NCBI GenBank assembly: GCA_003223245.1
Contig: QHYI01000152.1
Coordinates: 1 to 64,000, forward strand
Length of the DNA: 64,000 nucleotides
Source of the DNA: Acidobacteriota bacterium
Lineage (GTDB): Bacteria > Acidobacteriota > Terriglobia > Acidiferrales > UBA7541
Direction of reading: 5' to 3'
The translations under genes were made by a program, and so were the position numbers. The notes under the pieces were generated by a model. That model ran no database searches and was not told where the DNA came from. It saw only the letters and a list, made by a program, of their open reading frames with translations. Below, piece by piece: positions 43,176-62,412 of the stretch (its first letter is position 1; the number at the start of each line of letters is the position of its first letter).

Positions 43176-45308
43176 ATGGCCGCCGAAACCTCAGCAGCAA
43201 ATCCCACGGTCCAGCCATCCTTCGGGGGAAACCTAAAGCTTTTGAAGGCGCTGACAATTTTCGTGAGCGCGTTTCTGCTCTTCCAAGTCGAACCGCTTAT
43301 CGCAAAAATCATTCTTCCGTGGTTCGGCGGAGTGGCCGCGGTTTGGACGGTCTGCCTGCTGTTCTTTCAAGTGGTCCTGCTGCTCGGCTATCTCTACGCG
43401 CACTTACTGACGCGCCGGCTCGGATCGCGGGCGCAAGGCTGGCTCCACGCCGCTCTTCTTGCTGCTAGCCTGCTCCTCCTGCCAATTCTGCCGCGGGATT
43501 CTCTCAAACCGCTCGGACCCGAGCATCCTGCGTTGCACATTTTATGGGTGCTGGCGCTGACGGTGGGAATGCCCTTCTTTCTGCTTTCCACGACCAGCCC
43601 GCTTTTGCAAGCTTGGCTCGCAAGCACAAGACGAGACCGCGGCGTCTATCGTTTGTACGCACTTTCCAACGCGGGCTCGCTGCTCGGGCTGCTGAGCTAT
43701 CCCACGCTGGTCGAACCGCGGCTGTCGACCGTGCGGCAGGGCTGGAGTTGGTCTGTAGCTTACGCCGCGTTTGCGGTCGCGTGCGGAGTAATTGCCATCT
43801 CGCAACCACGCAGCAACGGAAAGTCGCGCCACCAAGAAGCGGAGGTGACACAAACTAATTGGAACACGCGGATGCTCTGGATGGCGCTTCCCGCGTGCAG
43901 TTCGGCGCTGCTTCTAGCCATTACCAATCATATTTCGCAAAACATCGCCGCGGTGCCCTTCCTGTGGATCATCCCACTCAGTCTGTACTTGCTTAGCTTT
44001 ATTTTGTGCTTCGGGAGCAGCGGCTGGTATCCCCGGATGATTTTCTTGCGGCTGCTCGGTGTTTGGTTGGGCGGGATGACTTACGCGCTTTCCCCGTCGC
44101 TCACAGCACTCCCTCTCTGGGTGTTGATTTCGTTCTTTTGTTCGGGCCTCTTTGTCTGCTGTATGTTTTGCCATGGAGAACTGGCACGATTGAAGCCCGA
44201 TCCCTCGCAACTGACGTCATTTTATTTTTGGAGCTCTCTTGGAAGCGTGGCGGGCGCGGCATTTGTCGCTCTTCTCGCGCCGCAGATCTTCTCGGGATTT
44301 TACGAACTGCATGTGGCCCTGGGGGCTTGCACGCTGTTGGTGGTTCTAGTCCATCGCGTTGATCCCGCAAGTCCTTTTTGGCAACCGCGTTGGCGGGCAG
44401 CCTGGATGATCATGCAAGCTCTGGCAGCGACGATCCTTGTTAGCTTGTTTTTCCTTGCCCGCGCCGAATCTGCTGGCACGATGCGCATGGCTCGGAATTT
44501 CTATGGGGTCTTGCGCGTTAGCGACGAAGTCGCGCCGAATGTTGTGTTGCTGAAGAATGACGAGCGGCCGGGCGCCATCAGCGATTCCCGGTTCCGGAGG
44601 CTGATGAACGGAACGATCAGCCACGGCTTGCAGTTTTTGGCGCCTGGGCGCCGGGATCAGACGACTTCCTACTACTCCACAAATTCCGGAGTCGGCGTGG
44701 CGCTCCGGGCGCTCTCCACACGCGGGCCGTTACACGTCGGTGTGATCGGGCTGGGGGCCGGCACAGTCGCCGCCTATGGGCGACCAGGCGACGAGTATAC
44801 GTTTTACGAAATCAATCCATTGGTTCTGCAGATCGCCCAGCGCGACTTCACCTTCGTGCAAGATTCGAAGGCGCACATTGCATTCAAACTGGGGGATGCG
44901 CGCCTGGCCCTGGAACGTCAACATCCGGAACAATTCGACCTACTAGCAGTGGACGCCTTCTCAGGCGATGCGATTCCGGTACATCTGTTGACGCTGGAGG
45001 CTTTCGAACTCTACTTTCGGCATCTACGAGCGGATGGCGCCCTGGCGGTCCACATTTCGAACAGGTATTTGGATCTGGACCCCGTGGTGTCGGCCGCTGC
45101 CCAGAAACTCGGCAAAGAAGCTGTGATTATCGACACAGGGGGCGACCCCGCGAACGAAATCTTTGTGGCTAGGTGGGCCCTGCTGGCGAATCGCGGCGTT
45201 CTCAAGGAATTCCCCGGCATTGAAAAAGCTGGAAAGCCGCTTGCCGCCGGTCTCGATAAACCTTGGACGGATTCTTACAGCAGTCTTTTTGCGATCCTAA
45301 AGAAGTAA
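43176..45308 (+). CDS. Fused MFS-like membrane / spermidine-synthase-like protein
   Basis: The protein has 710 residues. The first ~430 hold about 12 helices ([60 protein letters not shown]). The C-terminal ~270 residues form a class I SAM-dependent fold like spermidine synthase: [20 protein letters not shown] (SAM loop), [30 protein letters not shown] and [20 protein letters not shown]. Such fusions are common in Acidobacteria and related phyla; whether they make polyamines is unproven, and the catalytic Asp of true synthases is not certain here. It starts with a near-leaderless promoter. Confidence 0.85.
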
Positions 45309-45370
45309 GTTCCTGTGGGTTGAATGGCAGGAGGCTCAAGAAAAACCGCGAAGAAACACCCCAGGATACC

Positions 45371-45376
45371 TATAAT
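45371..45376 (+). promoter_or_regulatory. TATAAT -10 box 9 nt upstream of the 45386 start
   Basis: The sequence tacctataatctctgcgcg precedes ATG 45386. With a start point six to seven bases after the box, the leader would be only about three bases. An aggagg sits at 45330, too far to serve this ATG. Confidence 0.45.
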
Positions 45377-45385
45377 CTCTGCGCG

Positions 45386-46849
45386 ATGCGCATCCATCCG
45401 CTCGACTTGACCATCGTTATTGCCTACCTGCTCGGAGTGACAGCGCTCGGCATGCGCTTCCGCCGCATGCAGCAGGCCGGTGCGGCAGCCGACACGCAAG
45501 CCGCAGGCCGCGAGTATTTTCTCGGCGGGCGCACCGCGCCGTGGTGGGCGCTGGCTTTTTCCATTGTCGCGACGGAAACTTCGACCCTCACGATCATTGG
45601 CGCTCCCGCGATTTCTTACGCCGATAATCTGACCTTCATCCAACTGGTGTTCGGTTACCTCATCGGGCGCGTGTTGATTGTGCTGGTGCTGTTACCCGGC
45701 TATTTCCGCGGAGAACTCCTCACCGCCTACGCACTCATCGAAAAACGCTTCGGCGAAAAAATGCGCGCAGTAGCCGCCACGACGTTTCTGGTTACGCGCG
45801 CGATTGCCGAAGGTGTGCGGGTTTCAGCAATCGCTCTCGTAGTCAGCGTAGTGCTGGGTACTTCCGAGCGCCTCGCGGTCGTAATTGTCATTTCCCTGAC
45901 CATCCTCTACACCTTCGAAGGCGGCATGAAGGCGGTGATTTGGACCGACGTCGCGCAACTGCTTGTCTATATGACCGGGAGCGCCATCACGCTGGTCGTG
46001 TTGCAACACCGGATTCCCGGTGGCTGGAACGAAGTAACGCAGGTCGCGGCCGCAGCAGGCCATAAACTCCAGTTCCTCGATTTCTCCTGGAACCTCGCGA
46101 CCAAATATACGTTTTGGTCCGGAGTGATCGGCGGCTCGTTTCTCACCATGGCAACTCACGGTACCGACCAGACCATCGTGCAGCGCTTGCTCGCTGCAAG
46201 AAGTCAACGCGACAGCGGCCTTGCGCTCCTGACCAGCGGCGTTATTGTTCTCGTTCAATTCACTATTTTTCTGTTGATTGGTGTGCTGCTCTTCGTATTT
46301 GCGCGGCACACGCCACTTCTCTCTCCCGGAGATAGGGCCGATCGTATCCTGCCGCTCTTTCTCGCACGCGAGGTGCCCGTAGGGCTGGCCGGCCTGCTGC
46401 TCGCGTCCATCGTGGCGGTGGCCATGTCCAATGCCAGCGGCTCTCTAAATTCGTTGGCCGCTTCGAGCGTACTGGATTTTGGAAAGCTCTGGGGACGGGG
46501 CATTGACACGCGCAAATTCTTGCGCGTGTCGCGTGGCATGACCTTGGTATGGGGCCTCGTGTTGATGGGTTTCGGGTTCGTCAAATGGGGGCCGCTGCTC
46601 GAAGCAGGACTGACCGTAGCCTCGCTTCCCTTTGGCAGTTTGCTCGGTTTGTTCTTATTAGGAACGTTTGACCGCGGGGCAAATGCGCGTGGCGCACTCA
46701 TTGGAATGTTCGCAGGGCTTGTGGCCGTCTTGAGCATATTTCAGTTCACGAAAGTAGCGTATACGTGGTACTTCCTTATCGGCGCGTGCGTGACGCTCGG
46801 GATTGCTTCGCTTGTGAGCCGAATAGCGCGCAAGAAGAGTCCACCATGA
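45386..46849 (+). CDS. Sodium:solute symporter (SSS family)
   Basis: From ATG 45386 this has 487 residues and about 13 helices. Typical LeuT-fold SSS features: DLTIVIAYLLGVTALGMRFR, REYFLGGRTAPWWALAFSIV, ATETSTLTIIGAPAISYADN, TEGGMKAVIWTDVAQ-like sequence (FEGGMKAVIWTDVAQLLVYM), and the Na2-site region AVAMSNASGSLNSLAASSVL. It should co-transport Na+ with a sugar, amino acid or similar solute. It is followed on the same strand by an amino-acid permease gene. Predicted transcript is leaderless or nearly so. Confidence 0.9.
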   Translation: MRIHPLDLTIVIAYLLGVTALGMRFRRMQQAGAAADTQAAGREYFLGGRTAPWWALAFSIVATETSTLTIIGAPAISYADNLTFIQLVFGYLIGRVLIVLVLLPGYFRGELLTAYALIEKRFGEKMRAVAATTFLVTRAIAEGVRVSAIALVVSVVLGTSERLAVVIVISLTILYTFEGGMKAVIWTDVAQLLVYMTGSAITLVVLQHRIPGGWNEVTQVAAAAGHKLQFLDFSWNLATKYTFWSGVIGGSFLTMATHGTDQTIVQRLLAARSQRDSGLALLTSGVIVLVQFTIFLLIGVLLFVFARHTPLLSPGDRADRILPLFLAREVPVGLAGLLLASIVAVAMSNASGSLNSLAASSVLDFGKLWGRGIDTRKFLRVSRGMTLVWGLVLMGFGFVKWGPLLEAGLTVASLPFGSLLGLFLLGTFDRGANARGALIGMFAGLVAVLSIFQFTKVAYTWYFLIGACVTLGIASLVSRIARKKSPP

Positions 46850-51397: not shown

Positions 51398-52642
51398 TTA
51401 CTTATAAAGGAAATACTTACGTCTTACTTGGTCGAACGCGCTGAGCGCGTCCGACCAGCTGGTCACGATTTTCTCCGGCGGCACGCCATCCTTGATTTGC
51501 TGGACGGTGTCGGCATTTCCCAGAAGCCCGACAAGTTTGTCTGTGTCAAAATCCTTGGGATAGAGTTTTTGCAGAATCTCGGCGATCTCTAGACCCAAAC
51601 GCATCGGCCTCACCACGAAGCGGTCCGTAATTCGGATGGATACGCCGCCGCATCGCTCGCCGCTGTGCGGGCCGCCGATGGGAATGAAGGTTTTCGACTC
51701 AAAACGCAGGCCCGGCAGGTGGCGTTCGTTCAGCGCAGCGGCGACTGCCTCGCCGTCCATCCACGGCGCGCCAAATACTTCGAACGGTGCTTGTGTCCCG
51801 CGGCCGACAGAGACGCCGGAGTTTTGCAGGATTTCAATCCCAGGATAAAGGATTGCGCCTTTCGTCGTTCGCAACGCGGGTGAAGGGGGAATCCACTTCA
51901 TGCCGGTGCTTTCAAAAAAATAATTGCGATGCCAGTTCCGCATGGGGATGACGTGCAGGTCGGCCCCGATGTGATTTTCCGCATTGAAAAACTGCGCGAG
52001 CTCGCCAATGGTCAGGCCGTACCGCACCGGCATGGGGTAGTAGGCCACAAAATTGGTTTTGTCGGGATCGAGCATGGGACCTTCGACAATTTCTCCACCC
52101 ATGGGATTCGGTCGATCCAGAACATAAAACGCAATCTTGCGTTTCGCTGCTTCTTCCATGCAATACGCCATCGTGACCGTGTAAGTGTAGAAGCGTACGC
52201 CGGCGTCTTGGATATCGAAGACCAGCGCATCGATGCCTTGCAGCATTTCATCCGTGGGGCGGCGCGTATCTCCGTACAGGCTGTAGATCGGAAGCCCCGT
52301 CGTAGGATCTTTCGACGAGGCCACGTTTTCGTTGGCGCCGCCGGCCAGCCCATGCTCGGGGCTGAACAGCGCTACGAGCTTCAAACCCGCGGCGTGCGCG
52401 ACCAGGTCGATGTTGCTGCGACCCAGCGCATCTACGCCTGTGTGGTTGGTGATAAGGCCGATGTGCTTGCCATGCAGCGGGTCAAACCTCTCTGCTTCCA
52501 GAACGTCGAGGCCGGTCTGCACGCGGGCTGTATGACCGGAACGTCTGGGAGAGGAACGCGCGGGGAAAGAAGAAGTCGTGAGAAGAGCAAAAGACAAAGT
52601 GAATGGAGCGAATGTGGTAAGCGCGCGTTTCGTAGCGGTCAA
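51398..52642 (-). CDS. namZ: Exo-beta-N-acetylmuramidase (NamZ, DUF1343)
   Basis: From TTG 52642 (ggggga before it) the product has 414 residues with a signal peptide (TLSFALLTTSSFPARSS). The DUF1343 body is clear: GKHIGLITNHTGVDALGRSN, LVALFSPEHGLAG, DALVFDIQDAGVRFYTYTVT, YVLDRPNPMGGEIVEGPMLD and YPGIEILQNSGVSVGRGTQA. NamZ-type enzymes remove terminal MurNAc from peptidoglycan fragments in the periplasm. It lies divergently beside a GH3 glucosaminidase fusion gene, which removes GlcNAc, so the two could degrade glycan chains together. It appears intact. An ATG start further in is not obvious. Confidence 0.85.
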   Translation of the reverse strand: MTATKRALTTFAPFTLSFALLTTSSFPARSSPRRSGHTARVQTGLDVLEAERFDPLHGKHIGLITNHTGVDALGRSNIDLVAHAAGLKLVALFSPEHGLAGGANENVASSKDPTTGLPIYSLYGDTRRPTDEMLQGIDALVFDIQDAGVRFYTYTVTMAYCMEEAAKRKIAFYVLDRPNPMGGEIVEGPMLDPDKTNFVAYYPMPVRYGLTIGELAQFFNAENHIGADLHVIPMRNWHRNYFFESTGMKWIPPSPALRTTKGAILYPGIEILQNSGVSVGRGTQAPFEVFGAPWMDGEAVAAALNERHLPGLRFESKTFIPIGGPHSGERCGGVSIRITDRFVVRPMRLGLEIAEILQKLYPKDFDTDKLVGLLGNADTVQQIKDGVPPEKIVTSWSDALSAFDQVRRKYFLYK

Positions 52643-52771
52643 ATCGTCCCCCCTGCATTCCGAGAATACAATGATATTCTGGAACGCGCTGACCACAGCT
52701 TCGTTGAGAGCACGATGCGCATGTGCTATGAATAAATGCAGACTGCGGGCGGCGCGGGGAGATTCTATCTG

Positions 52772-55744
52772 ATGGAAGGACGCCGTGTCCGCTTTCTGTT
52801 TGTGATACCCATCTTATTGTTCATCCTTATGGCCCAAAAAGCACGCCGTCAAAGTAACAATTCTTCCGGGGAACAAACTACCGCACAACAGACCATAGCA
52901 AGCGGCAAAAGGAGCACAAAGAATCTCTCGCCAGCGGCGAGCGCGTGGGTGGAGTCCACGCTGCGCAAAATGACGCTGAGCGAAAAGATCGGCCAGTTGC
53001 TGTTCACCACGTATTACGGAGGCTTTACCTCCACTGACTCGCCGGCCTACCAACAACTTTTGCACGATGTTCAGGACTTGCATGTCGGCGGATTCATTGT
53101 CATCACGCATGGTTCGCCACTGGGCATCGTAAAGAGCCAGGCGTATCCGACGGCGGTGCTCGCCAATCAGCTGCAGGCAAAGTCCAAGCTGCCGCTGCTC
53201 ATCGGGGCGGATTTCGAGCGTGGCACGGCGATGCGCTACGATGAGGGCACATCCTTCCCCACCGCAATGGCCGTGGCGGCTGGCGGCAATCCCAAAGATG
53301 CCTATACCATGGGACAAATCACCGCGCTTGAGGCCCGCGCCACCGGCATCAACTGGGTGTACGCGCCGGATTCGGACGTGAACAACAATCCCGCAAATCC
53401 CATCATTAATACGCGGTCGTTTGGGGAAAATCCGCAGCGCGTGGCGGAGTTTGTTTCTGCGTTCATAAAAGGAGTCGAGGACCACGGCGCGCTGGCCACC
53501 GCCAAGCATTTTCCGGGACACGGCGACACCGCCGCGGATTCGCACGTCGATTTGCCGGTGATTTCGGCGAGCCGCGAACGTTTGGAGCATCTGGAACTAG
53601 TTCCTTTTCGCGCGGCGATTGCGGCAGGAGTGGACAGCATAATGACCGGGCATCTTTCTGTTCCTGCGCTCGAGCCCGATCCGAACACGCCCGCAACGCT
53701 TTCTCCAAAAATTCTTCAGGGTCTCTTGCGAAAAGAACTCGGATACCGCGGACTGATTGTGACCGACGCGATGGATATGGGCGGCATCACCGTGCGCTAC
53801 GCACCAGGAGAAGCGGCCGTGCGCGCGGTGGCCGCTGGAGTGGACTGCGTGCTGATGCCGCCGGTGCCGGATGCGGCGTTCGAAGCCCTGCAAGGCGCCG
53901 TCAAGGCGGGGCGAATTTCGAAACAGCGGTTAGATGAATCGGTGCGGCACATTCTGGAAGCAAAGGCGCGGCTGGGACTGAACAAGAACCGTCTTGTGGA
54001 TGTGAATGCACTGAATCACAAATTCGGCAGCGCCGCTTGGCAAAACGAAGCGCAGGAAATTTCCGATCGAGGCGTAACCTTGCTGCGCGACACACCGCAT
54101 CGATTGCCGCTGGATGGAACAAGGCCTTCGCGCGCCCTATTGCTGGCGCTGTATGCCGATCCCGAGCCGTATCCGGGGGAGGACCTCGAGCGCGAGCTGC
54201 GCTCGCGGTTTGATTCTGTGACCACCCTTCGCGCAGACACGCGTTTCGTAAATGCGAGCACTTTGAAGGTGCCTCCGCCGGATACCTACGATGCCGCGCT
54301 TGTTGCGTTCTTTGTGCGCGTAAGTGATCGCAAAGGGAACGTGGATGTGCCGCCGGAGCAGGCCGCGCTTGCAGAACAAGTTTACAAAACAGGGAAACCG
54401 GTAATCACGGTGGGATTCGGAAGTCCTTACCTCATCGAGAGATTTCCGCAAGCGGAAACCTGGCTCGCGGCATTTGGCATCAGCGACGTCGCGCAAATTT
54501 CCGTGGCGCGCGCGCTATTTGGAGACATTCCCGTGCGCGGACATTTGCCGGTGACCGTGCCTGGCGTGGACTTGAAAGCGGGATTTGGAATCGAAGTGCA
54601 GGCGAATCCGATGACGTTACAGCCGATGGATGTGCGCGCGGATGGACAATTGCGGCCAGCGTACGAAGTCATCGAAAAGGCGATCAAAGACAAAGCGTTT
54701 CCGGGAGCGACGCTGGCGGTTGGATTTCGGGACAAAGTGGCCATACACGCGTTCGGGAAATTAACTTACGACGCGAAGTCGCCGGCGGTAAAGCCGACGA
54801 CGATGTACGACATTGCTTCGTTGACGAAAGTGCTGGTCACGACAACCCTGGTGGCAAAGCTCGCCGAGGGTGACTTCGCCGTACCACTGGATTTGGACAC
54901 GAAGATCGAGCGCTATCTGCCGGAGTGGGCGAGCGGGCCGCAGCCGGAGTGGCGGCATCGCGTGACGGTGAGGCATTTGCTGACGCACACTTCGGGATTG
55001 CCGCCGTTCCGGGAATATTGGCGCGCGTCGAAGAGCAAGCAGGACACGCTCGAGAAGATTTTTGCCGAGCCGCTCGAATACGAGCCAGGAACAAAAGAAG
55101 TCTATTCGGATCTCGGAATCATTTTGATGGCGGAAATCATCGAGCGATTGACGGGGAGAAAGCTCGATGACTTGGCGAATAGTTTTATTTTTTCGCCGCT
55201 GGGGATGAAAGATTCGATGTACAAACCGCCAAAAAAACTCTGGCCGACGATTGCGCCGACGGAGGTCGACAACAACTACCGGCACCGGCTGATCCAGGGC
55301 GAAGTGCATGACGAAAACGCCTATGCAATTGGCGGCGTGTCGGGGCACGCGGGAGTGTTCGGCACGGCGCCGGACCTGGCGGCGTTTTGCCAGATGCTGC
55401 TGAACGGCGGCACGTACGCGCATCAGCGTATTTTGCGGCGCGCAACGGTGGCGCAGTTCACCACGCCGCAGCAGCTTTCGGGCGCGACACGCACGCTGGG
55501 TTGGGCCGTGCCGACGCCAGGCGGTTTGAGCGGTCATTATTTTTCAGAGCATAGTTTCGGGCACACGGGATTTACGGGAACTTCCATCTGGATCGATCCC
55601 GACCGGCAACTCTTTGTGGTTTTCCTGACGAATCGCGTGCATCCGACGCGCGAGAATCAAAAGATTCAGCAAGTACGAAGGGATTTGCACGACGCGGTCA
55701 TGCAGGCGCTGGGATTCGCCACCGCAGCGGCGCCGGTCAAATAG
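52772..55744 (+). CDS. GH3 beta-N-acetylglucosaminidase (NagZ-like) fused to a beta-lactamase-like domain
   Basis: From ATG 52772 the protein has 990 residues. A membrane/signal segment (RFLFVIPILLFILMAQKA) leads to a GH3 domain (residues ~60-400): HVGGFIVITHGSPLGIVKSQ, TAKHFPGHGDTAADSHVDLP with the NagZ catalytic His/Asp loop near 243, and GLIVTDAMDMGGITVRYAPG. A GH3 C-terminal part follows. Residues ~640-990 are a serine beta-lactamase-like (class C/DD-peptidase) domain: SLTK nucleophile near 681 (YDIASLTKVLVTTT), VRHLLTHTSGLPPF, VYSDLGIILMAEIIERLTGR and HTGFTGTSIWIDP. It may cut both sugar and peptide parts of the wall. It is divergent from namZ. Confidence 0.9.
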   Translation: MEGRRVRFLFVIPILLFILMAQKARRQSNNSSGEQTTAQQTIASGKRSTKNLSPAASAWVESTLRKMTLSEKIGQLLFTTYYGGFTSTDSPAYQQLLHDVQDLHVGGFIVITHGSPLGIVKSQAYPTAVLANQLQAKSKLPLLIGADFERGTAMRYDEGTSFPTAMAVAAGGNPKDAYTMGQITALEARATGINWVYAPDSDVNNNPANPIINTRSFGENPQRVAEFVSAFIKGVEDHGALATAKHFPGHGDTAADSHVDLPVISASRERLEHLELVPFRAAIAAGVDSIMTGHLSVPALEPDPNTPATLSPKILQGLLRKELGYRGLIVTDAMDMGGITVRYAPGEAAVRAVAAGVDCVLMPPVPDAAFEALQGAVKAGRISKQRLDESVRHILEAKARLGLNKNRLVDVNALNHKFGSAAWQNEAQEISDRGVTLLRDTPHRLPLDGTRPSRALLLALYADPEPYPGEDLERELRSRFDSVTTLRADTRFVNASTLKVPPPDTYDAALVAFFVRVSDRKGNVDVPPEQAALAEQVYKTGKPVITVGFGSPYLIERFPQAETWLAAFGISDVAQISVARALFGDIPVRGHLPVTVPGVDLKAGFGIEVQANPMTLQPMDVRADGQLRPAYEVIEKAIKDKAFPGATLAVGFRDKVAIHAFGKLTYDAKSPAVKPTTMYDIASLTKVLVTTTLVAKLAEGDFAVPLDLDTKIERYLPEWASGPQPEWRHRVTVRHLLTHTSGLPPFREYWRASKSKQDTLEKIFAEPLEYEPGTKEVYSDLGIILMAEIIERLTGRKLDDLANSFIFSPLGMKDSMYKPPKKLWPTIAPTEVDNNYRHRLIQGEVHDENAYAIGGVSGHAGVFGTAPDLAAFCQMLLNGGTYAHQRILRRATVAQFTTPQQLSGATRTLGWAVPTPGGLSGHYFSEHSFGHTGFTGTSIWIDPDRQLFVVFLTNRVHPTRENQKIQQVRRDLHDAVMQALGFATAAAPVK

Positions 55745-55863: not shown

Positions 55864-56394
55864 CTACTCCGAACGCACTTTGGCGGTTTCCTTAAGCAGA
55901 AGCTGGATTTCGCCCTCGAAGGCGGCTTTGTCGACCATGCCGAGATTGACGTCGGCGATTTTGCCGTTGCGATCGATGAGCAAACTTACCGGCATCCCTT
56001 TGTCTACGCCGAATTGCTTTGCGGATTCGAAGCTTCCAATGACGATGCGGTAGTTAATCTCATGCTCGGCCAGGTAGGGCTTGACGGATTTCCAGCCGTC
56101 GTCGTCCAGGGAAGCGCCGACAACGGACAGGCCCCTCTTGTTGTATTTGTTCTGGAATTCCATAAACCAGGGGATTTCTTCCTTGCAGCCTTCGCACCAA
56201 GTAGCCCAGAAATCGAGCAACACCACGCGGCCTTTGTAGGCAGAGAGATTGACCGGTGCGCCATTCGAGTCGGTCAGAGAAACCTCTGGAAGCGGTTTTC
56301 GAGAGGCCACCGGTGTGAGATCGGCCGGAGCATTTGTCGTTAGGGCTAAGGACGCAGACAACAAAGTGATCATGGAAACGATGTGACGCAGCAT
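55864..56394 (-). CDS. TlpA-like thiol-disulfide oxidoreductase
   Basis: From ATG 56394 (ggagg eight bases before) this has 176 residues. A signal peptide (IVSMITLLSASLALTTNAPA) precedes a thioredoxin fold: LPEVSLTDSNGAPVNLSAYK, VVLLDFWATWCEGCKEEIPW with the redox pair Cys67-Cys70, and KGMPVSLLIDRNGKIADVNL with the cis-Pro. It should reduce or oxidise periplasmic thiols, for example in cytochrome c maturation or stress. It stands alone between the GH3 gene (convergent) and the broken PadR unit. Confidence 0.9.
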   Translation of the reverse strand: MLRHIVSMITLLSASLALTTNAPADLTPVASRKPLPEVSLTDSNGAPVNLSAYKGRVVLLDFWATWCEGCKEEIPWFMEFQNKYNKRGLSVVGASLDDDGWKSVKPYLAEHEINYRIVIGSFESAKQFGVDKGMPVSLLIDRNGKIADVNLGMVDKAAFEGEIQLLLKETAKVRSE

Positions 56395-56550
56395 GTGCAA
56401 GAACCTCCATCTTCGGTTGAAATCACGTTCGTGAAAACCGGTGGGCCAACACGGATCTGATTTCTCGAACGATCACGCCGCCAAGAACAATCGCGAATAC
56501 ATCAGTGCATGACCATAAGATCCACCAAACAGCCCTTGGCCTGAGTGTAG

Positions 56551-57177: not shown

Positions 57178-58158
57178 CTACAACATTCCTTTTTTTAGGT
57201 CGATTGCGGCTTGGGAGAGGTCGGCGGGGCGGCCGAGGTCGCGCCAGTAGTAATCGTCAGCGCGGAAGGCGAGGATTTTTTCACCCTGGGCGGCGAGGCG
57301 AAGATAGGCGTCGATGATGGAGAAGGCGCCTTCTTCAGTGAGCATGGTGAGGAGACGACGGGAAATGATGTGGATGCCGGAGAAGGCGAGGGGAAGGAGT
57401 GGGTAGTGAGTAGTGAGTAGTGAGTGAGAGGAATGGGGTGCTGATGTCAGGTCGCTCGGTGCGCTACCGGTCACGGCGCGGCCAACGAGCTGGAGTTGGT
57501 CGTTGAAAAGGAGGAGGCGAGAGGACGGGCGAGACTGAACGCCAAGGGTGGCGAGGGCGTGATGTTCGTTGTGGAACTGCAGCATGCGGCGGAAGTCGAT
57601 GCTGGTGATGACGTCGACGTTGTGAAGGAGAAAGGGTTCTTCCCTTTGATCGCTGGCCTCAGGGGCTAAAGCCCGCTGATCCTGGTCACGTTCCGGCACG
57701 GCTAAAGCCGTGCCCTGGCGAGGCAAAAGCTTATCCCAAGCTGCGCCTTCCTCGGCAGGCAGGCTCGGGATGACACCGCCCCTTTTGTCTTTTTCAGGTT
57801 GCGGAAGGGAAGGCCGCAGGGCCCCGCGGATTGCGCCCTGCGCTGCGGGGCTGCGGTGGTGTTCAAGGAAGAACCAGGAGGCTTTTTTCAGGCCGCCGCC
57901 GGTGTCGAGCAAAAGATCATCCTCGCGCGAGACTTCAATACGCATGCCGAAGTTGTCGTGGGACTTCAGGTAGTCGACGACCATATCGGCTAAATGATGG
58001 ACGTTGACGATGACCTCGTTGATGCCGAAGGAACGAAGGCGAGAGAGAGTGATTTCGAGAAGTGTGCGGCCATTGATTTCGACCAGGGCCTTGGGGTGCG
58101 TGTCAGTCAGAGGCCGGAGGCGTGTGCCGAGCCCGGCGGCGAGGATCATGGCTTTCAT
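57178..58158 (-). CDS. Sugar-1-phosphate nucleotidyltransferase (MurU-like) with repeat-derived inserts
   Basis: From ATG 58158 the protein has 326 residues: MKAMILAAGLGTRLRPLTDT with the NTP-binding G-x-G-T-R, HPKALVEINGRTLLEITLSR, LLDTGGGLKKASWFFLEH, then FLLHNVDVITSIDFRRMLQF and PLAFSGIHIISRRLLTMLTE. Relatives are about 240 residues. The extra length lies in two inserts made of repeat DNA: after about residue 115 (bases 57620-57810) and near residue 245 (57400-57445, with a 7-base tandem repeat). Both keep the frame. With the AmgK-like gene 240 bases upstream it could make UDP-MurNAc or UDP-GlcNAc from the sugar-1-phosphate. Activity with the inserts is uncertain. Confidence 0.75.
   Translation of the reverse strand: MKAMILAAGLGTRLRPLTDTHPKALVEINGRTLLEITLSRLRSFGINEVIVNVHHLADMVVDYLKSHDNFGMRIEVSREDDLLLDTGGGLKKASWFFLEHHRSPAAQGAIRGALRPSLPQPEKDKRGGVIPSLPAEEGAAWDKLLPRQGTALAVPERDQDQRALAPEASDQREEPFLLHNVDVITSIDFRRMLQFHNEHHALATLGVQSRPSSRLLLFNDQLQLVGRAVTGSAPSDLTSAPHSSHSLLTTHYPLLPLAFSGIHIISRRLLTMLTEEGAFSIIDAYLRLAAQGEKILAFRADDYYWRDLGRPADLSQAAIDLKKGML
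57403..57427. repeat. Tandem 7-base repeat inside a coding gene
   Basis: gtagtga occurs three times in a row (57403, 57410, 57417), followed by gtga. It encodes SLLTTHYPLL on the minus strand. Gain or loss of one unit would shift the frame of the nucleotidyltransferase gene. Confidence 0.75.
57695..57714. repeat. 20-base perfect palindrome in the nucleotidyltransferase insert
   Basis: ggcacggctaaagccgtgcc is a perfect hairpin with an AA centre. A weaker relative, gggctaaagccc, lies 30 bases away at 57663-57674. Such ggctaaagcc palindromes are typical dispersed repeats. Confidence 0.7.
57728..57773 (-). repeat. Dispersed repeat copy within the nucleotidyltransferase insert
   Basis: On the minus strand it starts gtcatcccgagcctgcctgc and ends gggataagctt. 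Nineteen bases (57755-57773) are identical to 35080-35098. Confidence 0.65.
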
Positions 58159-58399: not shown

Positions 58400-59863
58400 T
58401 CATTCGGCGAGATTTCCCACGACGGCGTGCAACAGGCCGAGCTTTTCGAGTTCGACGTGGCGGACGACAACTTCGACGCTGTTTCGCCCGCGCAGATGTT
58501 TGGCGAGTTGCTCGGCAAGATAGACAGAGCGATGCTGGCCGCCCGTGCAGCCGAATCCCACCATTAAATTCTTGAAGCCTCGGTGTAGGTAATTGTCGAC
58601 GGTCGCGTCGATGAGCGAGAACACGGCTGCGAGATATTGATGCACACTTTCTTGTTGATGGAGATAGTCGATTACCGGCGCGTCCTTGCCGGTGAGCGAT
58701 TTGAAGCGCTCTTCCCTGCCCGGGTTGGGAAGGCCGCGGCCGTCGAAAATAAAGCCTCCGCCATTGCCCGTTTCGTCCTTGGGCAATTCGCGGTGGAACG
58801 AAAAGCTAAAAATGCGAACGACGAGACTGTCGGCTTCGGAAGCGATGCTCTGCAATTTTTCTGAGGCCAGCATGCTCTGGAACGCGCCGAGGAGCGTCGG
58901 CAACTCGATGGCCAACTGGACGTTGTGGAGCAGCCAGCGAATGTTTTTCAAGGCGTACGGAACGCTTTGCAGGAAATGCACTTTGCGCTCGAAGAAGCCG
59001 CGATATCCGTACGCACCGAGCGCCTGCATGATGCGCACGTAAACGAAGCCATAGTAGTAGCGCAGGAAGGCTTCGCGGTCGAGATCGATGAAAGTCGCAA
59101 GCGAGTTCAGATAGTGATCCAAGAGCTGCTGACGGATTTCCGGCGGCAGATCGGCCTTGCCGTCAAACAGAAGCGAAGCAATGTCGTACTGCAAAGCGCC
59201 CTTGCGACCGCCCTGATAATCGACAAAATAAGGCATGCCGTCGCGCAGCATGATGTTGCGTGACTGAAAATCGCGATAGAGGAAGTAATCGCGCGGAGCT
59301 TTGAGAAGAAATTCCGTGAGTCGGTCGAAATCGTTTTCCAGAGCGCATTCGTTGAAGGGGATGCCTGCGAGGCGGAAGAAATAGTATTTGCAATAGTTCA
59401 AATCCCAAGCGATGGATTGGCGGTCAAAGCTGCCCACGGGATAGCAATAGCTGTAGTCAAAATCGCGGGCGGCTTCGACTTGAAAGCGCGGGAGGATGCC
59501 AACGGCTTTGCGGTACGCGTCGACAACGACAGGGGCGACGAAATCACCGGAGCGATTCTTGGAGAGAAATTCGAACAGCGAGGTGTCGCCGAGGTCTTCT
59601 TCGAGATAAGCGCCCTGGCCGAGGGCTTCTTCGTAGATTTCTGGCACGGGCAGGAGGTGCTTGCGAAAATGTCTGGAGAATGCCAGGAAGGCAGTATTTT
59701 CTTCGCGAACGCCGTAGAGAACGCCGACTGCGCTACGGCTGTCGTCGGCGAGGCGGATGATTTTTCGGCCGGAGCCGCCGAGCTCGCCTTGCAGCGGCAG
59801 AATGCGCGTGGGCTGCGTATGAAAATGCTGCTCGAAGAGCTTTTTGAGGACGTCTATAGACAT
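58400..59863 (-). CDS. AmgK-like anomeric sugar kinase fused to a RapZ C-terminal domain
   Basis: From ATG 59863 (aaggg before it) the protein has 487 residues. Residues ~1-340 are an aminoglycoside-phosphotransferase-fold kinase like AmgK: LEEDLGDTSLFEFLSKNRSG, FLYRDFQSRNIMLRDGMPYF with the catalytic Asp near 198, and VDYQGGRKGALQYDIASLLF with the Mg-binding Asp. AmgK phosphorylates MurNAc and GlcNAc at C1. From about residue 350 a RapZ C-terminal-type domain follows: FSFSFHRELP, GLPNPGREERFKSLTGKDAP and LMVGFGCTGGQHRSVYLAEQ. The RapZ C-terminus binds glucosamine-6-phosphate in E. coli. The RapZ ATPase half is absent. A feedback-sensing kinase is my inference. It precedes the nucleotidyltransferase on the same strand. 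Confidence 0.82.
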   Translation of the reverse strand: MSIDVLKKLFEQHFHTQPTRILPLQGELGGSGRKIIRLADDSRSAVGVLYGVREENTAFLAFSRHFRKHLLPVPEIYEEALGQGAYLEEDLGDTSLFEFLSKNRSGDFVAPVVVDAYRKAVGILPRFQVEAARDFDYSYCYPVGSFDRQSIAWDLNYCKYYFFRLAGIPFNECALENDFDRLTEFLLKAPRDYFLYRDFQSRNIMLRDGMPYFVDYQGGRKGALQYDIASLLFDGKADLPPEIRQQLLDHYLNSLATFIDLDREAFLRYYYGFVYVRIMQALGAYGYRGFFERKVHFLQSVPYALKNIRWLLHNVQLAIELPTLLGAFQSMLASEKLQSIASEADSLVVRIFSFSFHRELPKDETGNGGGFIFDGRGLPNPGREERFKSLTGKDAPVIDYLHQQESVHQYLAAVFSLIDATVDNYLHRGFKNLMVGFGCTGGQHRSVYLAEQLAKHLRGRNSVEVVVRHVELEKLGLLHAVVGNLAE

Positions 59864-60013
59864 GGCTGCCCTTCCATCCATTTAGAAAGATGGAGCTGGC
59901 CGGGTGGTGTCTAGCATAGCCCATTCCCGTATAAGACGCCTGGGCCAGCGTCTGTGGTTGTGCCTAGAAGTGCAGTTTGCGGGTTAAACGCCAGGTATTT
60001 CGGGCTGGCTCGT

Positions 60014-60025: not shown

Positions 60026-61018
60026 ATGCCCAAGCCCTTCAGAACCTCCTTACCCAAAGAATCTCGACTGACGGAACAAAGAAACAAGGCTTCGCGAAAC
60101 CTTGACCGCATGACGGCACGCGAAATCGTCGCGCTGATGAACCGCGAAGACCGTAAAGTGGCGATCGCGGTGGGAAAAGAGATTCCGGCGATTGCGCGCG
60201 CGGTAGACGCGATTGTCGCAGGGATCCGCAAGGGCGGGAGGCTGATTTATGTGGGAGCGGGCTCGAGCGGGCGCATGGCCGTGCTGGACGCGGCGGAGTG
60301 CCAGCCGACGTTCGGAACGCCGCCGAAGCTGGTGCAGGCGCTGATCGCGGGAGGACCGCGCGCGATCACGCAGGCGGTGGAAGGGGCGGAAGATGACGTC
60401 CGCCACGCGCAGCGCGAACTGCGCAAAAGAAAACTGACGCCCTATGACGTGGTCGTAGGAGTAACGGCGAGTGGTACAACGCCATTCGTGCTGGCCGCGC
60501 TGAAGTTTGCGCGAGGACGAAAGGCAACGACCGTGGCAATTACCTCCAGCCGAAGAACGCCCGTGACACGGCTGGCGAGAATTGTGATTGCGGCGGAGGT
60601 AGGACCCGAGGTGCTGACCGGGTCAACGCGCATGAAGGCCGGGACGGCGCAGAAAATGGTGCTCAACATGCTCAGCACTGCTTCGATGGCGCGGCTCGGA
60701 CACGTATATGAAAACCTGATGATTGACGTCGTGCTGACAAATGCAAAGGTTGCGAAGCGGGCGTTACGGATTTTGGCCGAGGCGAGCGAAAAAAGTGTGT
60801 CTGCGGCAGAACACGCTCTGCGGGCGGCGGGACACAATATGCGCGTGGCGTTGATGATGCTGAAGCTGGGCGTGGAAGCGAGTGAGGCGAAGAGGGCTCT
60901 CGCGAAGGGAGGCGGAAATTTGCGGACAGCGCTCGGTGAACGAAGTTCTAGGTCAGAAAGTGTAAGTACAAAGGAAGCGTTGTCGCACAATAAGGCGATC
61001 AGCGCGAAGGCCGTTTGA
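60026..61018 (+). CDS. murQ: N-acetylmuramic acid 6-phosphate etherase
   Basis: The enzyme has 330 residues and cleaves the lactyl ether of MurNAc-6-phosphate to give GlcNAc-6-phosphate and lactate. The SIS-domain hallmarks are LTEQRNKASRNLDRMTAREI, GRLIYVGAGSSGRMAVLDAA, AECQPTFGTPP with the catalytic Glu near 91, ITQAVEGAEDD with the second Glu near 119, and EVLTGSTRMKAGTAQKMVLN. Length fits the family. A repeat-like tail (SSRSESVSTKEALSHNKAIS) is not conserved. It heads an apparent unit with murA 98 bases downstream. The MurNAc-6-phosphate source could be the BadF kinase at 36 kb. Confidence 0.93.
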   Translation: MPKPFRTSLPKESRLTEQRNKASRNLDRMTAREIVALMNREDRKVAIAVGKEIPAIARAVDAIVAGIRKGGRLIYVGAGSSGRMAVLDAAECQPTFGTPPKLVQALIAGGPRAITQAVEGAEDDVRHAQRELRKRKLTPYDVVVGVTASGTTPFVLAALKFARGRKATTVAITSSRRTPVTRLARIVIAAEVGPEVLTGSTRMKAGTAQKMVLNMLSTASMARLGHVYENLMIDVVLTNAKVAKRALRILAEASEKSVSAAEHALRAAGHNMRVALMMLKLGVEASEAKRALAKGGGNLRTALGERSSRSESVSTKEALSHNKAISAKAV

Positions 61019-61116: not shown

Positions 61117-62412
61117 ATGGATAAATTTTTGATCAACGGCGGGAAGGCGCTGCGGGGGGCCGTGGCGGTCAGCGGGGCAAAGAATTCCGCGCTGCCGGCC
61201 ATGGCGGCGGCACTGCTGACCGCGGACAAAGTGGTGGTGCGCAATGTGCCGAAAGTGCGCGACCTGGTCACCATGAGCAAGTTACTGGCCTTCATGGACG
61301 CAAAGGTTTCGGTGGCGGCGGTGCCTGCGAGCGATTACGAGATTCAAGCGCCGAAGCTGAATCATGCGGAGGCGCCATACGAGTTGGTGAAGACGATGCG
61401 TGCGTCGATTCTGACGCTGGGTCCCTTGATGGCGCGTCTGGGAATAGCGCGAGTCTCGCTGCCGGGAGGATGCGCGATCGGGGCGCGGCCCGTGGATTTG
61501 CACTTGAAGGCGCTAGAGCAGATGGGCGCGGAGATCGCCACGTCACGTGGGTACATCGAGGCAAAAGTGCATGGCAACGGTTCGCAGGGGCGGCGGTTGA
61601 AGGGCGCGCACATTGTGTTTGAGAGAATTACAGTGACGGGGACGGAAAATATTTTGATGGCGGCGTCGCTGGCGGAAGGCGAGACGGTGCTGGAAAACGC
61701 GGCACGCGAGCCGGAAGTGACCGACCTGATTGCCATGCTGCGCAAGATGGGTGCGCAGATTTGCGGAGATGGCACTTCGACGCTGCGGATTCGCGGCGTC
61801 AAAGAACTGCACGGAACGGAACATACCGTGATTCCGGACCGCATCGAGGCCGGGACGTTTCTTGTAGCTGGAGCAATTACCGGCGGCGATTTGAAGATTC
61901 ACAATTGCATAGCGGCGCATTTGGGCGCGGTGATTGCGAAACTGCATCAGGCGGGAGTGCAGATTGACATCGTGGATGCGACGACGATTCGCGTGCGCGG
62001 CACAGAGAAACTGCTGGGCGCGGACGTGACGACGGAGGAGTATCCGGGATTCGCCACGGACATGCAGGCGCAATACATGGCGCTGGCGACGCAGGCGGAA
62101 GGCGCCTCGGTGATTACCGAGACGATTTTTGAAAATCGCTTCCTGCATGCCAGCGAGATGATGCGCATGGGCGCAAATATTTCCGTGGAAGGGCGGCGCG
62201 CGGTGGTGCGTGGGCCGGCGCAATTGTCGGGAACGACCGTGCAGGCGTCGGACTTGCGCGCGAGCGCAGGGCTAGTGCTGGCGGGCCTAGTGGCCAGCGG
62301 CGAGACGCTCATCGATCGCGTGTATCACATTGACCGCGGATATGAAGGCATCGTCGAGAAATTGCGCGCTGTTGGAGCTGACATCGAGCGAGTGCACGCG
62401 CCTGGGACCTAG
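61117..62412 (+). CDS. murA: UDP-N-acetylglucosamine 1-carboxyvinyltransferase
   Basis: The enzyme has 431 residues and does the first committed step of peptidoglycan synthesis. Conserved parts are [20 protein letters not shown], the catalytic loop [20 protein letters not shown] with Cys119 (E. coli Cys115), so it should be fosfomycin-sensitive, and [20 protein letters not shown] and [20 protein letters not shown]. It lies downstream of murQ, so wall recycling and new synthesis are linked in one unit. A bidirectional terminator separates it from pnp. Confidence 0.96.

Follow-up and report, generated by a model that had tools for sequence, protein, structure and literature searches.

The window analyzed here is the whole stretch of 64,000 nucleotides at the start of contig QHYI01000152.1 from an Acidobacteriota bacterium, and its minus strand carries a gene (positions 58400 to 59863) that joins an AmgK-like sugar kinase to the C-terminal domain of RapZ in one protein of 487 amino acids, as identified from the open reading frame, Pfam, a PDB sequence search, and a structural model. 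The frame is single and unbroken from 58400 to 59881 (493 amino acids), and the length of 487 follows from a start at the ATG at 59863. The kinase part, with an APH fold assigned from Pfam, alignment, and structure, occupies residues 1 to about 340 (58844 to 59863; the boundary is approximate and was taken from the model), and the RapZ-type domain, placed by Pfam, PDB sequence search, and structure alignment, occupies residues 347 to 474 (58442 to 58825). Pfam matched APH at residues 53 to 259 (E value of 2e-11, over the cutoff) and the RapZ C-terminal domain at residues 348 to 472 (E value of 7.7e-33), while PF03668, the N-terminal P-loop ATPase domain of RapZ, was not found by Pfam in the fusion protein. 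The PDB sequence search returned the C-terminal domain of Escherichia coli RapZ (5o5s; E value of 2.4e-17) and the APH-family structure 3csv (E value of 7.2e-16). AlphaFold modeled the whole fusion with a pLDDT of 92.2 and a pTM of 0.74, using a 48-sequence alignment as input, and the C-terminal part by itself with a pLDDT of 90.6; the latter superimposed on 5o5s with a Z score of 20.1 and an rmsd of 1.5 Å over 123 residues. A preliminary description made from the sequence had read the gene as an AmgK-like kinase followed by a RapZ C terminus lacking the ATPase half, and had suggested structure prediction and comparison with RapZ for the C-terminal part; each element of that reading is supported here, and the fusion is confirmed as real.

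For the kinase half, the closest solved structure was 3csv, from Silicibacter sp. TM1040 (Z score of 28.7 and rmsd of 2.9 Å over 311 residues), which, unlike the fusion, has 333 amino acids and no RapZ-type domain in the match. NahK (4ocu) and a glucosamine kinase (6hwl) both matched with Z scores of 19.7, as did many kinases of the same fold at similar values. Residues D198, N203, and D215, which are presumably the catalytic and metal-binding residues of the APH fold, were invariant in 48 aligned relatives, and the motif surrounding them was found in 79 of 81. The 48-sequence alignments comprised the window protein and 47 of 53 nonredundant relatives, with L075, L076, L077, L080, and L084 excluded beforehand. 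The NCBIfam AmgK models were the sole kinase models that matched all 48 relatives, far below their cutoffs; the window fusion scored 40.7 of the 500 bits required by one AmgK equivalog model and 39.8 of the 550 bits required by the other. Because both cutoffs were missed by far, we call the kinase AmgK-like, a term that denotes likeness rather than membership.

The most conserved feature of the RapZ-type domain is the loop C439-T-G-G-Q-H-R445-S446 (58526 to 58549, minus strand), recognized from the sequence and from residue counts. The pocket of E. coli RapZ has been described as comprising H190, T248, G249, H252, and R253, with C247 close by (PMC5737377, PMC9841335), and replacement of H190 by alanine is reported to abolish the activity of the E. 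coli protein (PMC9841335). In all 81 fusions among the matches listed, a count that excludes the cut or frame-shifted L081, L091, and L105, the equivalents of C247, T248, G249, H252, and R253 were invariant and the equivalent of H190 was glycine, which leaves four of the five pocket residues in place. The loop pattern C-T-G-G-x-H-R-S was likewise invariant in these 81 fusions, in 63 of 63 fusion-type rows (to which Bacteroidota and split versions had been added), and in 23 of 23 rows of RapZ proper, where the H190 position was occupied by H in 14, Y in 7, F in 1, and N in 1. All 63 fusion-type rows contain three glycines in an inserted loop that was not found as such in RapZ; D363 was present in 63 of 63 fusion-type rows versus 21 of 23 RapZ rows, and D394 in 62 of 63 versus 15 of 23. 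A tree of the domain, built from few columns, separated the 23 RapZ rows from the fusion-type rows as two clades with support of 100. The preliminary description had proposed that the domain senses glucosamine-6-phosphate (GlcN6P) and acts as a direct feedback switch for the kinase. The retention of five of six pocket and edge residues agrees with that proposal, whereas the glycine in place of H190 speaks against it, and the switch itself is not established.

The architecture is widespread. A scan of named genomes confirmed at least 344 relatives, and the best 80 of these, at 48 to 88% identity and with full-length architecture, were kept as loci. These best 80 came from Acidobacteriota, KSB1, Elusimicrobia, NC10, Calditrichota, Marinimicrobia, Ignavibacteriales, and Bacteroidetes, together with one member of the Opitutia, one genome labeled Deferribacteres, and a few unclassified genomes; the survey of fusion frequency called for in the preliminary description thus extends over several phyla. 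Since the full-length architecture recurs in other phyla at this level of identity, chance and misassembly were ruled out as its origin. Closer to the source organism, the fusion-type domain occurred in 48 of 200 genomes of its own class and in 18 of 20 of its own genus; the open frame was at least 468 amino acids, enough for the fusion, in 45 of the 48 and 149 to 336 amino acids in the other 3. In a sample of 149 genomes from the phylum, 4 contained a nearly full-length match, the source genome among them.

Directly downstream of the fusion, on the same strand, lies a gene for a MurU-like nucleotidyltransferase with extra loops (57178 to 58155, minus strand; Pfam, NCBIfam, and alignment), and such a gene was found within 600 nucleotides in this arrangement at 74 of the best 80 of at least 344 loci. 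Four of the 6 loci with no adjoining MurU end at or near a contig end; L110 and L111 have room for the gene and have none beside the fusion, and both genomes encode MurU elsewhere. The NCBIfam MurU models matched all 22 MurU-like relatives scanned (22 of the 58 relatives found were taken for alignment and scanning), and the window protein and its counterpart at L042 scored 110.9 and 131.3, respectively, of the 250 bits required by the MurU equivalog cutoff. With its long extra loops the window protein reaches 325 amino acids, most relatives having about 245 to 255; in the MurU-like proteins of L034, L035, L036, and L067, additional loops of different length are inserted at one of the same two sites or at both. 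A MurU-like gene also adjoined 15 of 20 lone-kinase loci from Acidobacteriota, with none within the stretch read at the other 5.

Several other genes of the window point to the handling of peptidoglycan sugars. Divergent from the fusion gene is murQ, encoding MurNAc-6-phosphate etherase (60026 to 61018, plus strand; NCBIfam), followed by a gene for an enolpyruvyl transferase of the EPSP_synthase family (61117 to 62412, plus strand; ORF and Pfam), which we take from its sequence to be MurA. On the other side are genes encoding a NagZ-like GH3 hydrolase joined to a beta-lactamase/PBP4B-type domain (52736 to 55744, plus strand; Pfam and NCBIfam), the exo-beta-N-acetylmuramidase NamZ (51398 to 52696, minus strand; Pfam), and a sodium:solute symporter (45263 to 46849, plus strand; Pfam and sequence comparison) that is possibly a sugar importer. 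The position of the fusion among NamZ, NagZ, MurQ, and MurA genes indicates a setting of peptidoglycan-sugar salvage, and these neighbors together with the MurU pairing bear out the wall-recycling context proposed in the preliminary description. The NagZ-like/beta-lactamase-type protein has 1,002 amino acids, and both of its halves were matched at L035, L036, L046, and L050. The cluster also contains a gene for a thioredoxin/AhpC-like protein (55864 to 56400), with matches at L034 and L035.

This neighborhood is not a general feature of the fusion, since near the best 80 of at least 344 loci MurQ was found at 5 and NamZ at 2 (L036 and L050); a NagZ-like gene was found at 5, one of them a weak match. 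All of these matches were in Acidobacteriota, and short contigs often limit the view. A related arrangement occurs with a distant lone kinase in Bacteroidota (L210 to L216, which resemble Chlorobi), where a row of kinase, MurU, and NamZ was present at 7 of 7 loci and was followed by a symporter at 6 of 7; NamZ and the symporter were confirmed by Pfam at L213 and judged by sequence at the others, and the L213 symporter is 34% identical to that of the window. This row is possibly a set for MurNAc release, import, and salvage. As NamZ, symporter, and salvage genes accompany the kinase and MurU, the sugar handled is most likely MurNAc.

The kinase and the RapZ-type domain are separable in the Bacteroidota. 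Among 198 genomes, 24 contained the fusion-type domain, and all 24 also contained a close kinase (E value of at most 1e-70) and a close MurU (E value of at most 1e-60), these cutoffs having been chosen after a gap was seen in the lists. Close kinases and close MurU genes were each found in 25 genomes, and both sets consisted of the same 24 domain genomes plus one further genome, G191, which carries its kinase and MurU side by side (L209, 6590 to 8298) with no RapZ-type domain. Distant kinases (E values of 1e-40 to 1e-19) were present in 42 further genomes, and one further MurU matched at 3e-46. The domain was fused to the kinase in 20 of the 24 genomes and was encoded by a separate gene, for 133 to 135 amino acids, in 4. 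Kinase, domain, and MurU are three consecutive genes at L165, L167, and L168, and each lies on a different contig in G362; MurU and the domain were on different contigs in 6 of the 24 genomes. At L166 (6938 to 7336), a lone fusion-type RapZ domain stands beside a gene for an endonuclease I-type secreted protein, with the kinase and MurU on other contigs. In a quick kinase tree, the domain-linked kinases formed one group of 62 rows with support of 92, and the split kinases fell inside it at two places; on that tree, domain and kinase have therefore been separated at least twice.

The only PF03668 match in the source genome belongs to a RapZ of full length that is encoded apart from the fusion, on a different contig, and replacement of RapZ by the fusion was thus ruled out for this organism. 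The preliminary description had contrasted the fusion with the RNA-based circuit of enterobacteria; because an ordinary RapZ is present as well, that contrast is incomplete. Among the matches listed, PF03668 was present in 20 of 37 fusion genomes and absent from 17, which were assemblies of unstated completeness from KSB1, Calditrichota, Marinimicrobia, Bacteroidetes, Ignavibacteriales, and Opitutia, plus one from Deferribacteres and one unclassified.

We hypothesize that the fusion combines a MurNAc-6-phosphate phosphatase with an anomeric kinase, a reading that we favor over that of an allosteric sensor while giving it somewhat less than an even chance. The N-terminal AmgK-like kinase would place a phosphate on C1 of MurNAc, and possibly of GlcNAc, and the MurU-like neighbor would then make the UDP-sugar, bypassing de novo synthesis. 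The RapZ-type domain would most likely bind an amino-sugar 6-phosphate, for which MurNAc-6-phosphate made by AnmK is the first candidate, and the invariant cysteine of the CX5RS loop would remove the 6-phosphate; MurQ, the product of the adjacent gene, would be a competitor for that substrate. In this salvage module, the domain would thereby take on the role that MupP, an unrelated enzyme of the HAD type, has in Pseudomonas. That it is a Cys-dependent amino-sugar 6-phosphatase, making the fusion bifunctional and the MupP step an independent invention, is an idea we hold tentatively and would place a little on the doubtful side. The substrate, the catalysis, and the direction of the pathway are all inferred for the fusion.

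In Cys-dependent (PTP-type) phosphatases, the signature loop has the sequence C-x5-R-S, connects a strand to a helix, and lies at a phosphate-binding site. Sequence and model place a CX5R(S/T) loop in this position in the fusion domain, and in the AlphaFold model of the domain the loop cysteine is the final residue of the strand and the arginine the first residue of the helix. The likeness has been noted for RapZ, whose pocket is described as homologous to the Cys-phosphatase loop and which, as its authors speculate, may hydrolyze GlcN6P (Khan and Görke 2020, PMC7199280). A C247S variant of RapZ is reported to be inactive, and exposure to GlcN6P gave density for a likely transformed product, described as "chemically transformed" (PMC9841335). 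The main texts of PMC9841335 and PMC5737377 do not use the term phosphatase. Since the domain also occurs as a separate gene and carries the loop with the Cys-phosphatase signature, catalysis is at least as compatible with these observations as sensing is. No phosphatase family matched the domain in Pfam at E values up to 10, and no general acid for the putative Cys-phosphatase mechanism was identified in the domain. After RapZ, Foldseek and further structure comparison gave matches with Z scores of about 5 to 6 only (PFKFB, polynucleotide and other kinases, phosphofructokinase, and methyltransferases), and there were no Cys-phosphatases among the 50 structure matches listed for the domain model, too narrow a listing to count against such a fold.

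In Pseudomonas, the AmgK-MurU route is reported to need the MurNAc-6-phosphate phosphatase MupP, which completes it (PMC5371409), and AnmK, which makes MurNAc-6-phosphate, was therefore surveyed. AnmK exceeded its cutoff in 33 of 38 fusion genomes, the source genome included (two were partial at contig ends), and was present in 16 of 23 further Bacteroidota genomes with the domain, leaving 7 that lack it. In genomes with a lone kinase, it was found in 3 of 20 Acidobacteriota and in none of 19 Bacteroidota (19 of the 42 distant-kinase genomes were sampled), and it was absent from G191. The counts with and without the domain are thus 49 of 61 versus 3 of 40 overall (Fisher P = 9e-14), 12 of 13 versus 3 of 20 in Acidobacteriota (P = 1.4e-5), and 16 of 23 versus 0 of 20 in Bacteroidota (P = 9e-7), all three of these P values ignoring kinship. 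In this sample, genomes having both AnmK and the kinase nearly always carry the domain, as expected if the domain handles MurNAc-6-phosphate, and this fits removal or sensing of that compound. No HAD-type phosphatase was consistently found by eye beside the lone kinases of 20 Acidobacteriota and 8 Bacteroidota loci, a simple motif being used in the latter.

Other observations count against a phosphatase, among them the 7 Bacteroidota domain genomes that have no AnmK. AnmK follows lineages, as it was present in 16 of 17 Bacteroidota with no kinase match and hence in genomes free of the module. Of the 38 fusion genomes, 31 gave a strong MurQ match (E value below 1e-80), which in 25 exceeds the NCBI cutoff, so MurNAc-6-phosphate already has an outlet; genomes with AnmK and no MurQ were considered as proof of a needed phosphatase, and that argument is weak given the same MurQ count. 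NamZ could supply unphosphorylated MurNAc, for which no phosphatase is required. Finally, G191 keeps the kinase and MurU with no domain, which counts against a phosphatase, and which a dispensable regulator would allow.

It is possible, although less probable than catalysis, that the domain is an allosteric sensor that binds GlcN6P, MurNAc-6-phosphate, or GlcNAc-6-phosphate without turnover and tunes the kinase, or the kinase-MurU pair, to supply. The C-terminal domain of E. coli RapZ is reported to bind GlcN6P with a KD of 10 nM by SPR and to respond by releasing sRNA (PMC7073468), the anion-loop residues are kept in all 81 fusions among the matches listed, and the correlation with AnmK would also suit sensing of MurNAc-6-phosphate. 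However, the replacement of H190 by glycine in the same 81 fusions is at odds with this, the domain would need to act in trans in the genomes that encode it separately, and pure binding gives no reason for an invariant cysteine that, in the account of PMC9841335, serine does not replace in RapZ.

The tight pairing with MurU could instead indicate a scaffold, in which the domain chiefly builds oligomers or docks the kinase to MurU for the handing on of the sugar-1-phosphate, and the C-terminal domain of RapZ is described as a dimer in crystals (PMC5737377). We consider this unlikely: the invariant anion loop would be left unexplained, MurU lies on a different contig from the domain in the 6 Bacteroidota genomes mentioned above, and G191 has a close kinase and MurU and no domain for the two to be docked by. 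Binding of RNA as in E. coli RapZ, which would link the enzyme to regulation of its own mRNA or of others, is very improbable. The domain is homologous to the RNA-binding C-terminal domain of RapZ, and in the 81 fusions among the matches listed it keeps R184 in all 81 and a Lys or Arg at R196 in 63. However, all 81 have Phe in place of R238 and 71 have Gln in place of K251, and the K170 position is occupied by Lys or Arg in only 27 and by His in 53. The setting, moreover, is metabolic, and the RNA-binding domain is said in PMC7073468 to be restricted to the Enterobacteriaceae.

Returning to the proposed phosphatase-kinase, the closest functional parallel is the AmgK-MurU-MupP route as described for Pseudomonas (PMC5371407, PMC5371409), which likewise pairs an anomeric sugar kinase with a MurU-type nucleotidyltransferase and is fed by AnmK. 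It differs in that the kinase of the module studied here has a RapZ-type domain, either fused to it or encoded separately, that would replace the HAD phosphatase MupP, and in that most fusion genomes have MurQ too. With RapZ/YvcJ (RNase adapter RapZ) the domain shares the C-terminal fold and the C-T-G-G-x-H-R-S anion loop; the fusion differs from these proteins in having no P-loop ATPase domain, glycine in place of H190, loss of R238 and K251, other partners, and a separate clade. A literature search, with most subscription papers outside its scope, found nothing that joins RapZ with AmgK, RapZ with MurU, or UPF0042 with a phosphotransferase fusion, although RapZ does occur in print together with peptidoglycan recycling and together with Bacteroidetes. 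The fusion architecture is presumably listed automatically in domain databases. The domains and the pathway are known, and a description of how the combination works was not found in the literature searched.

RapZ has mainly been studied as an RNA adapter, and the papers cited here leave open why its C-terminal domain needs the cysteine and what becomes of GlcN6P. Salvage enzymes that carry the same domain with only part of the RNA-contact residues, and with a close MurU in all 24 of the Bacteroidota domain genomes, offer a simple place to answer both questions. If the domain is regulatory, it would represent a new and direct metabolite control of wall-sugar salvage. If it is catalytic, it would close the gap at the phosphatase step of MurNAc salvage in several phyla, and E. 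coli RapZ would have its sensor domain in common with a functional salvage enzyme, which would account for its indispensable cysteine.
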